Notes under the pieces: generated by a model | Database searches by the model: none | What the model was told of the DNA's origin: nothing | The model's input: only the letters and a program-made list of their open reading frames with translations | Shown: one piece after another, positions 54,082-64,000 of the stretch | How the letters are laid out: every line of letters begins with the position of its first letter | Position numbering within the stretch: position 1 is the stretch's first letter | Made by a program: the position numbers and the translations under genes | From: Rhizobium sp. FY34 | GTDB lineage: Bacteria > Pseudomonadota > Alphaproteobacteria > Rhizobiales > Rhizobiaceae | Reading direction: 5' to 3' | Length of the DNA stretch: 64,000 nucleotides | Assembly (NCBI RefSeq): GCF_005222845.1 | Contig: NZ_STFZ01000001.1 | Location: forward strand, 1-64,000

Positions 54082-54402
54082 TCGAAGCGAATTAATCGGC
54101 TCGAATGGCAAGCTGGTGCTCTCTACCGGGCTGACGAGGTCTCAGGTGAAGGTTTCATCTGAGAACTGGGCCAGGCTTTGCCCTTCGCGCTACGCATTCC
54201 TGCGCGGCATCTGGCGCTGTTGGAAACCGGGTCGGCCTTCTGGGCTTTGACCCATCCACTCCACGGCGCACATCAGCTGGCAACGACGCCGGCCGATGCT
54301 CAGCCATACACATCAGGGTGAAGCACGGATGCCCGCATGCCGTGGCATCTTCATGCGCCCTGCGTGTTTCACTTAAACTCGTTTGCACGAAAGGCAGGCT
54401 CA

Positions 54403-55572
54403 ATGTTGACGCCGGAACAGACCCGCATCGTTAAAGCTACGGTCCCAATTCTCGAGACTGGTGGCGAGGCCCTGACGACGCATTTTTACAAGATCATGCT
54501 TGATGAGTATCCCGAAGTTCGGCCGCTCTTCAATCAGGCGCATCAGATCCACGGTTCGCAACCGAGGGCTCTTGCCAATGCGATTCTGCAATATGCACGT
54601 CATATCGACGATCTGGGCGCGCTTGGTAGCCTGCCGGCACGCATCATCCAAAAGCATGTCGCGCTGCAAATTCTGCCGGAACACTATCCCGTCGTCGGGA
54701 CCTGCTTATTGCGTGCCATCCGCGAGGTGCTCGGTGCGGAAACTGCAACCGATGCGGTCCTGGATGCCTGGGGGGAAGCCTATTGGCAACTCGCCAACAT
54801 CCTGATTGGTGCGGAAGGCTCTGAATACAATCGTTTGGCAGAGACGCATGGCGGTTGGCGTGGTGGTCGCCTCTTTCGCGTTGCAGACAAGTGTATCGAG
54901 AGTGCAGAGATCGTGTCGCTCTACCTGTCTCCTGTTGATGGCGCTGCTGTCCTTTCGCACGAGCCGGGCCAATATCTGGGCCTTAAGCTGCTCATCGACG
55001 GGCAGGAGGTGCGTCGCAACTATTCCATCTCGCAGGCCGCCAATGGCGAGCAGTTACGCATCAGTGTCAAGCGCGAGCCTGGCGGTTTGGTTTCGAACCA
55101 TCTGCACGACAAGGTGCAGATCGGCAGCGAACTGGAAATCTTCCCGCCTGCTGGCCTGTTCGTCTTGAAGAAAGGTGCAGGGCCTCTGGCGCTGATCAGT
55201 GGTGGTGTTGGTATTACGCCTTTGCTGGCCATGGCAGAAGCCGCGCTTGCCGAGGGTATGCGCGACATTGTCTTCATTCACTATGCTCGCAATCGGGATG
55301 TCCATGCCTTTGCCGGTACGGTGGAAAACTGGGCTCGCGACTATCCAAACTTTACCGCGCATATCGTCTACGAAGAGGCAGGGCAGGGCGACGCCTACTC
55401 TGGCCGTCCGTCGCTTGAGCACTTGCGAAACTGGGTGCCCGCAAATGCAGACGCGTATTTTCTGGGGCCAAAGCCATTTATGTCATTCATTGACAAGGCG
55501 CTGACCGAAATCGGCATCCCGGCTGAGCGTCGAGAATTCGAGTTTTTCGGTCCAACAGAAGCACTGGATTGA
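54403..55572 (+). CDS. hmp: Flavohemoprotein, nitric oxide dioxygenase
   Basis: Hmp oxidises NO to nitrate with oxygen and NAD(P)H. The 389-residue protein has a globin domain (residues 1-140) with Tyr29, Phe43, Gln53 and proximal His85 at the same positions as in E. coli Hmp. A ferredoxin reductase-like FAD domain (GQYLGLKLLIDG, RRNYSIS) and an NAD domain (LISGGVGITPLLAM) follow. The preferred ATG at 54403 starts the classic MLTPEQT; the frame is open to 54337. It is divergent from nsrR, which probably represses it. Confidence 0.95.
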   Translation: MLTPEQTRIVKATVPILETGGEALTTHFYKIMLDEYPEVRPLFNQAHQIHGSQPRALANAILQYARHIDDLGALGSLPARIIQKHVALQILPEHYPVVGTCLLRAIREVLGAETATDAVLDAWGEAYWQLANILIGAEGSEYNRLAETHGGWRGGRLFRVADKCIESAEIVSLYLSPVDGAAVLSHEPGQYLGLKLLIDGQEVRRNYSISQAANGEQLRISVKREPGGLVSNHLHDKVQIGSELEIFPPAGLFVLKKGAGPLALISGGVGITPLLAMAEAALAEGMRDIVFIHYARNRDVHAFAGTVENWARDYPNFTAHIVYEEAGQGDAYSGRPSLEHLRNWVPANADAYFLGPKPFMSFIDKALTEIGIPAERREFEFFGPTEALD

Positions 55573-55897: not shown

Positions 55898-56313
55898 CTA
55901 TCGATCGATCTGACGAGACGACTTGTCCCCCCTCCGGCAGAGCGACTGGTCGATGAAGGATCGTACGAAGGCGGTGGGTGACTGAGGGTAGAGTGTGTGC
56001 GGATCGGCGAGCGGGTCGATCCGCGCATGGTGCATGTCCGCCACTCCGTCGGACATGGTCAGCGCTTCTTCTTGGTCGTGCGTTAGAAAGAACGTTGTCG
56101 CGCCGATCTGTGACAACCGATGGCGAAGCTTGATTTGTATTGCCTCGCAAGGCTTGCGATCCAACATGGACAGGGCCTCTTCGAAGTGGATGTTGCCCGG
56201 CTCGACGGCAAGGGCGCACGCGAGGTCCCATTCAATGGCTTCCTGTCATCCATACACGGTACCAGCCGACAGGGTTGTGGGAGCAACAGGCGCCGCCTGG
56301 CACGTAAGGGCAA
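55898..56313 (-). pseudogene. Remnant of a PotA-type ABC transporter ATPase
   Basis: Translated on the minus strand, the region keeps recognisable ABC ATPase C-half features: LAVEPGNIHFEEALSMLDRK in place of Walker B with D-loop, ATTFFLTHDQEEALTMSDG for the switch region and SPTAFVRSFI afterwards. Walker A is missing, the signature region is broken and there is an in-frame stop at 56246-56248. DRK and DQEEALTMSD recall spermidine/putrescine-type (PotA) ATPases. It lies between hmp and the DUF1868-type gene and is probably non-functional. Confidence 0.7.
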
Positions 56314-62657: not shown

Positions 62658-63322
62658 AACTGCCGGCTAGAGCGTGTTTCGACCTGATTGGATCAGTTCT
62701 GTTGGCCCAAACCCGCTCTAAACAAAATATGGTTCGGTTTGCGGCCTGGGGGTGCAAGTCGATCCGGTAGCCAACCGGCCTTGGCGATGAAATACGTTTC
62801 GTGCCGGGCGCGAGATTCGTCGAATGACTTGAACATCGAGGGCCGTTTGCAGAGCGCCCCTTGAATAAATTTTGCACGTGAAAAACCAATGAAATCATAA
62901 TCCTGATCGTGTTTTCTATAGAGCCGTGACCCCGCGGGCTGCGCTAAGACCTGCCAAGATCGCAATTGGGCATGAGAATGGCGATCACTCATCGGCCGAT
63001 GTGGCGGAAACTCTAACTGGACCCGCAAGGGCTTGCTAAAATAAACATTGCTTGGGTGGTTGCGATTTATTAATTTTTAGTAAATAATACTCGTAATGAG
63101 GGTGTCGAAGTATTTTCCTGCGTATGTATCTACGATTTTTCCTATTTTTCCAGCTGCGTGAGGAAGTTTTAAATAATATCGCCTTGAAACAGCAACATAT
63201 TGTGGTGCTGTAAAATATTTTATTGGCGATTTTTTGATTTATTTTCAAATCGATGCCTCCAGAATTGATTGCGTTTGGTGATGCTGTCTTGATCGAAAAC
63301 CTATCAAAGGGGAGTGATATCG
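62658..63322. other. Gene-poor stretch, partly AT-rich
   Basis: A palindromic repeat lies at 62667-62720. The part from about 63030 to 63260 is clearly more AT-rich than the neighbours (long A/T runs such as TTATTAATTTTTAGTAAATA). No credible ORF is seen. The AT-rich end probably contains the promoter of the Tat-peptide gene and may mark a transferred segment boundary. Confidence 0.55.
62667..62720. repeat. Palindromic intergenic repeat (rhizobial type)
   Basis: TAGAGCG at 62668-62674 is the reverse complement of CGCTCTA at 62714-62720, and a small inner palindrome CTGAT-TGG-ATCAG lies at 62684-62696. The AGAGCGTGTTTCGACCTGAT opening resembles dispersed intergenic palindromes I know from Rhizobiaceae (RIME-like). 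Genome-wide copies would confirm it. Confidence 0.5.
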
Positions 63323-63814
63323 ATGAATGAACAATTCAATCGCCGCAAATTCTTGAAAACGGTCGGCTTCGGCGCGGTGGTGACCTCGGCCGGGTCGGCC
63401 ATTGTGACATCGGCGGCGCATGCGCAGACGAAGATGAACTTGGCAGATGCGAAACTGCTGAAAATCGACCCGAAGATGCTTGAACTAAAGCTTAGCGATC
63501 CGCGAGCAGTGAAGGTTATCAAGCTTGATGCGCGGCTGCCCACGACGACGCCGATCACGCAGATGGGCCTCGACAGATCGGGGATGGCGGCGCTCACGCC
63601 GGCTGCCAAGGAACTGACCAAAGCCGACCTCCAGGCCATGGCCGAGGGGAAAATCCCGGCGCGCGCCCAGAACCTGACTGTCGCTGACATCAGTTCCATC
63701 AAGGTTGCCTTCGGATCCGGCTACAAGGTTCCCGGCAATTTGGCGGCAGATATTTCCTGCTGTTGCTGCACGCCATGCTGCTGTGCGGCAGCGGTCGAGT
63801 CGATCGCCGCCTAA
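63323..63814 (+). CDS. Tat-signal small protein with Cys-rich C-terminus (RiPP precursor-like)
   Basis: The 163-residue protein starts MNEQFNRRKFLKTVGFGA, a twin-arginine signal (Arg7, Arg8) with cleavage near AHA at 34-35. The middle is charged and helical. The C-terminus holds a cysteine block, CCCCTPCCC at 146-154 (seven Cys in nine residues), then a short AAAV tail. The ATG at 63323 has AAGGGGAG at about 8 bases; a GTG at 63314 is possible. Cys-dense C-terminal cores in small leader-like proteins suggest a RiPP precursor or a metal-binding protein. The next gene looks like a radical SAM enzyme. No homologue is recognised with confidence. Confidence 0.75.
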   Translation: MNEQFNRRKFLKTVGFGAVVTSAGSAIVTSAAHAQTKMNLADAKLLKIDPKMLELKLSDPRAVKVIKLDARLPTTTPITQMGLDRSGMAALTPAAKELTKADLQAMAEGKIPARAQNLTVADISSIKVAFGSGYKVPGNLAADISCCCCTPCCCAAAVESIAA

Positions 63815-63816
63815 CG

Positions 63817-63864
63817 GTCAGTCAAATGCACCCGCTCATTGATCGGGCGGGTGCTGCGACTGAC
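63817..63864 (+). terminator. Nested hairpin between Tat-peptide gene and next gene
   Basis: GCACCCGC (63828-63835) pairs with GCGGGTGC (63847-63854), and an outer stem GTCAGTC (63817-63823) pairs with GACTGAC (63858-63864). A short T-containing tail follows (ACTTCTTATG). It may partly terminate transcription, giving more precursor than enzyme mRNA. Confidence 0.7.
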
Positions 63865-63923
63865 ACTTCTTATGCCTCGTCCAGATCCGGATTTCTCGGT
63901 TCCTTGAAAAGGGAGGCAGGACT

Positions 63924-64000
63924 TTGCCTATTCGCTGCTTATTGATCTGGCCAAACTCGCGCAACGAGGTTTTGGGCTGGGGGGATCTGGGCGCCATCGC
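63924..64000 (+). CDS. Start of a gene, possibly a B12-binding radical SAM protein (partial)
   Basis: A TTG start is preceded by GGGAGG at 7 bases (63911-63916) and opens a frame running off the window end. The visible residues include RCLLIWPNSRNEVLGWGD and GDLGAIA. This pattern (hydrophobic strand, then PxSRNE and GDLGA) resembles the N-terminus of B12-binding domain radical SAM enzymes, which modify RiPP precursors and natural products. Only 25 residues are seen, so the assignment is tentative. Confidence 0.45.
   Translation, partial: MPIRCLLIWPNSRNEVLGWGDLGAI

Follow-up and report, generated by a model that had tools for sequence, protein, structure and literature searches.

The window analysed here (bases 1-64000 of the 249050-base contig C9 from the 5.04-Mb genome of Rhizobium sp. 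FY34) ends inside a gene cluster whose probable product is a ring-modified peptide with a cysteine block. Its predicted precursor is a 163-residue protein with a twin-arginine translocation (Tat)-type signal, a conserved leader module and the core block CCCCTPCCC. Judged by its sequence, including that of the contig past position 64000, which was readable, the cluster is of a known kind, that of linear azol(in)e-containing peptides (LAP) or thiazole/oxazole-modified microcins (TOMM), because its YcaO, SagB and E1-like domains (the TOMM D, B and C proteins) pass curated cut-offs. The new feature of this otherwise known kind of cluster is the Tat-type signal on the precursor. We consider it rather probable that this is a LAP/TOMM-type pathway for a ribosomally synthesized and post-translationally modified peptide (RiPP), with the precursor as a substrate of Tat. 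The chances are evenly balanced for the broader proposal of a cross-phylum LAP subfamily, tailored by B12 radical S-adenosylmethionine (SAM) and Rieske enzymes, in which several lineages export via Tat; this would be the first natural Tat-exported RiPP.

Enzymes and precursor of the cluster

Nine genes on one strand, most of which overlap or are separated by only a few bases, form the cluster that the window edge cuts; the gene after the M50-like gene is on the opposite strand (Table 1). Against NCBIfam, the YcaO protein scored 279.7 bits with TIGR03604 (cut-off 219.25), the SagB protein, a flavin mononucleotide dehydrogenase of the B type, 148.7 bits with TIGR03605 (cut-off 78.4), and the SagC/E1-like, leader-binding C protein 48.3 bits with TIGR03882 (cut-off 36.9), while the narrower SagC subfamily model TIGR03603 gave 72.8 bits, under its cut-off of 187.65. 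The nearest solved relative of YcaO is TruD, and the protein ends in a PxPxP-like NPFPHPYP. A B protein of the SagB type is frequent, not universal, in LAP/TOMM clusters.

Table 1. Positions of the precursor, its elements and the cluster genes (past 64000 on the same contig, with unchanged numbering)
Feature	Position	Strand	Basis or remark
Shine-Dalgarno-like AGGGGAG, precursor gene	63308-63314	+	sequence
Precursor gene, 163 aa + stop	63323-63814	+	ATG start; open reading frame, sequence, homologues
Tat-type signal peptide, residues 1-35 (NRRKFLK, hydrophobic stretch, AHA-Q)	63323-63427	+	motif test
Conserved leader module, ~residues 70-137	63530-63733	+	alignments with Tat-less relatives; structure model
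Core block CCCCTPCCC, residues 146-154	63758-63784	+	sequence, alignment
Strong hairpin between precursor and radical SAM genes	63817-63864	+	folding
Shine-Dalgarno-like AGGGAGG, radical SAM gene	63910-63916	+	sequence
B12-binding radical SAM gene, part in window	63924-64000	+	TTG start; 25 codons in window
Radical SAM, B12-binding (whole gene)	63924-65345	+	
SagC/E1-like	65342-66421	+	TIGR03882
YcaO (SagD)	66423-67760	+	TIGR03604
SagB	67780-68583	+	TIGR03605
TPR-like protein, 720 aa	68580-70742	+	
Rieske oxygenase	70688-71605	+	Pfam Rieske, KshA_C
Alpha/beta hydrolase	71602-72423	+	
M50-like membrane protein	72413-73201	+	HELGH

The earlier note on this DNA, made from the window, had described a 163-residue Tat-like protein ending in CCCCTPCCC. 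The protein and its block were found as described, but the block is not its end, since nine further residues (AAAVESIAA) follow. At least seven cysteines within nine residues occur once when the window is read in all six frames, and never in 100 first-order Markov copies. The third-position GC of the precursor reading frame is 0.74, both overall and for residues 1-35, similar to the 0.66-0.71 of the later cluster genes. No Pfam or NCBIfam model recognises the leader. In a structure model with an overall pLDDT of 48.2, only about residues 68-130 rise above 70; within the leader module, residues of about 71-130 were modelled with helices at a pLDDT of about 70-80, so that the module may, with modest confidence, be a small helical unit.

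The note had also placed a strong hairpin, a strong Shine-Dalgarno sequence and a gene resembling B12-binding radical SAM proteins behind the precursor, and all three were confirmed. The 113-nt gap region that holds the hairpin folds at -46.3 kcal/mol (z -3.9), a value equalled by none of 200 shuffles, and the hairpin received no terminator call. Past the window edge the radical SAM gene is complete and encodes B12-binding and Radical_SAM domains, both over their Pfam cut-offs (80.8 bits against 32.1 and 68.6 against 29.5), with one CxxxCxxC motif. This domain order and motif are as in B12-dependent radical SAM methyltransferases of the HpnR/TokK type; TokK is the closest solved structure, whereas the best NCBIfam model, HpnR, gave 239 bits, far under its cut-off of 650, and the setting here is that of a RiPP. 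With these domains and TokK as the nearest structure, C-methylation of the precursor is a natural guess from sequence. The proposed order of precursor, hairpin and radical SAM gene thus stood, but the role of defining maturase did not pass to the radical SAM enzyme. Genes for further maturases (SagC/E1-like, YcaO and SagB) follow it, which rules it out as sole maturase, and the enzyme would be one of tailoring.

The Rieske protein passes the Pfam models Rieske (59.9 bits, cut-off 20.3) and KshA_C (30.2, cut-off 23.3) and keeps the cluster-binding CxH...CxxH and mononuclear-iron DxxHxxxxH motifs; a search at E 1e-8 gave no solved relative. For the TPR-like protein, a Bauldia homologue was folded instead (pLDDT 59.5, pTM 0.49); Foldseek matched nothing to this model at E 0.001 or better, with TPR proteins as the top rows, and we call the protein TPR-like and nothing further.

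The precursor family in other genomes

Relatives of the YcaO protein, 40-51% identical to it, were found in Bauldia (four clusters), on the Tistrella mobilis plasmid pTM3, in an Acidobacteriaceae metagenome-assembled genome (MAG; G1082) and in two genomes drawn from the same order as this MAG (G1307 and G1331). A precursor profile search added G1339 (a genome from the same phylum as G1082), two further genomes of the genus Tistrella, and G1791, from another alphaproteobacterial family. Altogether there are eight precursors in seven kinds of cluster, with two precursors from G1791 and the near-identical Tistrella copies counted as one. In all seven kinds, namely the window, Tistrella, G1791 (the second alphaproteobacterial family) and the four acidobacterial-lineage genomes, the cysteine-block precursor adjoins the same core enzymes, and the family thus spans two phyla. 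In the Bauldia clusters, a precursor was found neither near the cluster nor elsewhere in the genomes (0/4).

A cysteine block can bind metals unmodified, and on this general ground the Tat-type protein might be a plain cysteine-rich metal binder beside an unrelated RiPP cluster. The recurrence of the leader-core module next to YcaO, SagC and SagB genes in seven cluster kinds and two phyla makes this very improbable, and a stand-alone metal-binding protein was rejected on the same evidence.

Seven of the eight precursors share the leader pattern LT-x-x-DL ... LT-x-x-D-(I/L)-x-x-I/L-x-x-x-(F/Y) followed by the cysteine block. Within the block, six of these seven have a proline (CCCCTPCCC, CCCCCCPCCC, CCCCSPCCTC, CCCTCTPACCC and, in two precursors, CCCCCTPCCSCC), and the Tat-bearing precursor of G1791 has none. 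The eighth is the second G1791 precursor, which has the block alone, without the shared leader: it is a 55-residue protein beside the Tat-bearing one (L064 912-1079, minus strand), with the core GCCCCCC and no Tat signal.

The radical SAM gene accompanies five of the seven cluster kinds (the window, G1331, G1082, G1339 and G1307), at about 55% identity to the window's protein in the four others, among them the G1307 copy, which is broken into two frames. Cysteine-block homologues lie beside the same maturases in all seven kinds and are not scattered, in line with the earlier note, but its expectation of a radical SAM neighbour held for these five kinds only. The gene was not found in the Tistrella genome or the two Bauldia genomes searched, nor at the other two Bauldia loci or on the 14-kb G1791 contig. 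G1082 additionally has the Rieske (34% identical) and hydrolase (38%) genes.

Several of these loci have features of their own. G1082 (L016 5163-12100) and G1307 (L044 4667-11704) each hold two E1-like/YcaO/SagB sets, with one precursor found in each, between the two sets; in G1082 a further radical SAM gene lies at a distance. In G1339 (L063 299-3895), more pieces resembling the TPR-like protein lie downstream of the cluster, and a kumamolisin-like protease gene adjoins the radical SAM gene. In a Chloroflexi MAG (L019 320-499, plus strand), a 59-residue reading frame ending in ATYWCCCCCCWDGDVTIE directly precedes matches to SagC/E1-like, YcaO and SagB and appears to be a further cysteine-block TOMM precursor. 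In G1247 (L050 1015-1380, plus strand), a 121-residue reading frame with a tail of alternating cysteines (CVCVCPCNCVCNC...) lies about 2 kb ahead of matches to E1-like, YcaO and SagB and is possibly a different cysteine-rich precursor.

The distribution of the cluster is sporadic. YcaO was found in one of 57 genomes of the genus (the window's own), in 4/397 of the order (its own, two Bauldia and one distant), in 4/398 of the phylum (its own and three distant) and, at E 1e-40, in 15/250 from the order of G1082, the close ones being only G1082, G1307 and G1331. The precursor was found in 1/297 genomes of the family (its own), in 5/279 of the class (its own, three of the genus Tistrella and G1791) and in 2/287 from the phylum of G1082. 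The window genome and Bauldia belong to the same order. Because relatives occur in another phylum, the sequences suggest horizontal transfer. A scan of contigs returned eight loci, a lower bound: it relied on short patterns, and many members may therefore be missed. Among viral contigs, 177 pattern matches included no relative; among plasmids, the precursor had no match and the radical SAM protein matched four records, each under 60% identity. One further precursor-like match, at E 0.05 on G000:C31 of the window genome, was set aside as chance, because it lies inside an apparent transporter permease gene and contains an internal stop.

In a YcaO tree built from 19 chosen loci, a subset of those fetched, the 15 family rows grouped together (100/99) and were separate from six other rows of TOMM type; the rows of G1331 and one of G1307 were partial. 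The window grouped with Bauldia (95/96), and the deeper forks were not firm. A single clade of the Tat-bearing rows was neither recovered nor rejected (p-AU 0.111; 13 rows, without Bauldia and without the first module of either G1082 or G1307). A single gain with losses and several gains of the Tat-type N-terminus are both compatible with the trees.

The twin-arginine N-terminus and export

In the window precursor, about 66 residues precede the leader-core module: NRRKFLKTVGFGAVVTSAGSAIVTSAAHA-Q and then a linker. Different twin-arginine N-termini precede the same module in G1339 (GGRRQFVSAAITAAGMAVAATALAA) and G1791 (TSRRALLIGAAGLTGIAATLVAKPAVA). A motif test that combined an RR-x-hydrophobic pair within the first 50 residues, a hydrophobic stretch and an AxA-like site was passed by these three of the eight precursors, in three lineages; among 100000 shuffles of their own N-termini, 194, 268 and 407 also passed (0.2-0.4%). 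TatC, which most bacteria are expected to have, is present in 6/6 of these genomes.

From these observations we infer the following course of events. The hairpin after the precursor gene would raise the precursor over the enzyme message, and the SagC/E1-like protein would bind the conserved leader module. In the cytoplasm, YcaO and SagB would convert cysteines of the block to thiazol(in)es; methyl or hydroxyl groups would come from the B12 radical SAM enzyme and the Rieske oxygenase. The Tat signal would then take the finished, leader-bearing, folded protein through the inner membrane, a task that falls to an ABC exporter in other TOMM clusters, and signal peptidase, perhaps also the M50-like protein or the hydrolase, would release the product.

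The earlier note had looked ahead to a transporter in the cluster. With genes called by codon composition and compared to Pfam, no exporter was recognised among the cluster genes. A scan of 14 loci for Walker A plus ABC-signature motifs matched none of the clusters' own genes; matches fell at three loci, 1.7 kb past the last cluster gene in L002 and away from the YcaO operon in L013 and L015. The usual TOMM ABC exporter was thus not seen in members with or without the Tat signal. In Tistrella, a papain-like protease-like protein follows the TPR-like gene (18.3 bits, cut-off 19). Within the window, a short reading frame at 55898-56167 (minus strand) contains an ABC-ATPase-like stretch (FFLTHDQEEALTMSDG); it lies close to a set of sugar-type ABC importer genes and is apparently what is left of a gene.

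A number of findings weigh against Tat export of a finished RiPP. The Tat-type N-terminus is missing from five of the eight precursors. The NCBIfam Tat model TIGR01409 gave 15.4 bits for the window protein, under its cut-off of 16.7, and no Tat match for the G1339 and G1791 precursors; Pfam gave none for all three. The nearest precursor, that of G1331 (51% identical over leader and core), lacks a Tat signal, its start lying about 13 residues ahead of the shared module with its own AAGGAGG and an in-frame stop upstream. The exporter scan was limited to two short motifs, and an exporter is possibly encoded elsewhere. The M50 match is under its Pfam cut-off (15.6 against 27.2 bits), and the single precursor of the window is without any known product. 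With G1331 and the other Tat-less precursors in view, export cannot therefore depend on Tat family-wide, and the signal did not prove to be a general trait of cysteine-block precursors. Modification in the cytoplasm followed by folded export, as the earlier note had proposed, is still the best reading.

Some of this evidence would also suit a LAP/TOMM pathway in which the twin-arginine N-terminus is a membrane anchor or an extra recognition element and the product either remains in the cell or leaves through a transporter whose gene lies elsewhere. The scores below the curated Tat models and the five precursors that manage without a signal are in its favour, as is the description in PMC12452194 of how a signal peptide can form part of what modifying enzymes recognise. 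Against it, RRxFLK, the hydrophobic region and AHA-Q occur all together in the window precursor, and the twin arginines, hydrophobic stretch and AxA site recur in G1339 and G1791 on the same leader module. We regard the anchor or recognition role as unlikely.

If the precursor is indeed a Tat substrate, it would bear on a question of timing. According to PMC12452194, it is highly unusual for a bacterial RiPP precursor to have an N-terminal Sec signal, and the paper raises the question of premature export. A natural Tat-signal precursor would answer that question, because Tat moves proteins already folded in the cytoplasm, and an exporter-free layout of azole peptide clusters would be demonstrated. 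In PMC5686179, the idea that Tat might give modifying enzymes time is speculation only, for lanthipeptides in phage display. The main text of PMC4603692 has zero occurrences of twin-arginine, radical SAM, Rieske and signal peptide, PMC10885120, on leader proteases, mentions neither Tat nor twin-arginine, and no report of a Tat-exported RiPP was found among the matches listed from the open-access literature.

Known systems and possible products

The cluster is like other LAP/TOMM clusters in its YcaO (D), SagC/E1-like (C) and SagB (B) genes and in the neighbouring cysteine-block precursor kept with them. It differs in the B12 radical SAM enzyme, the Rieske oxygenase and the TPR-like protein, in its long, unrecognised leader, and in the Tat-type signal with no ABC exporter seen. 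A TOMM with a nitrile-hydratase-like (NHLP) or Nif11 leader was rejected: at E up to 1, neither leader was matched in the window precursor (Pfam, NCBIfam), nor in those of G1339, G1791, G1082, G1331 (NCBIfam only) and Tistrella (Pfam only).

The product may be a membrane-active polyazole, streptolysin-S-like or bacteriocin-like, a function that we hold to be doubtful. SagB/C/D-type enzymes and contiguous heterocyclizable blocks are shared with TOMM cytolysins, which, according to PMC4513790 and PMC4603692, have a run of 9-10 or more contiguous heterocyclizable residues after a Gly, and clusters with ABC transporters and a CaaX-like protease. In contrast, the window block is shorter and interrupted, with six contiguous residues (SCCCCT), Pro and three Cys, and no Gly in front; the leader is unrelated and recognised by no Pfam or NCBIfam model; and neither an ABC transporter nor a CaaX-like protease was recognised among the nine genes (Pfam, NCBIfam). 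With two defining features absent, membership of the streptolysin-S-like group was ruled out.

A periplasmic metal-buffering or redox protein, bufferin-like and made through azole chemistry instead of multinuclear non-heme iron-dependent oxidative (MNIO) enzymes, is a similarly tentative proposal for the function. Bufferins and oxazolins are MNIO-modified RiPPs whose precursors likewise combine an N-terminal export signal with Cys motifs; theirs are Sec signals and MNIO enzymes, whereas a Tat-type signal and YcaO are found here. PMC12452194 describes copper-binding bufferins as signal-bearing precursors modified in the cytoplasm and exported, and the long precursor without a dedicated exporter would fit this likeness, from which the proposal is drawn. 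Against it, no MNIO gene (Pfam) and no metal-resistance gene were recognised in the cluster.

Elsewhere in the window, a 411-residue reading frame at 54337-55572 (plus strand) was judged by eye to be flavohemoprotein-like, with globin and reductase parts.
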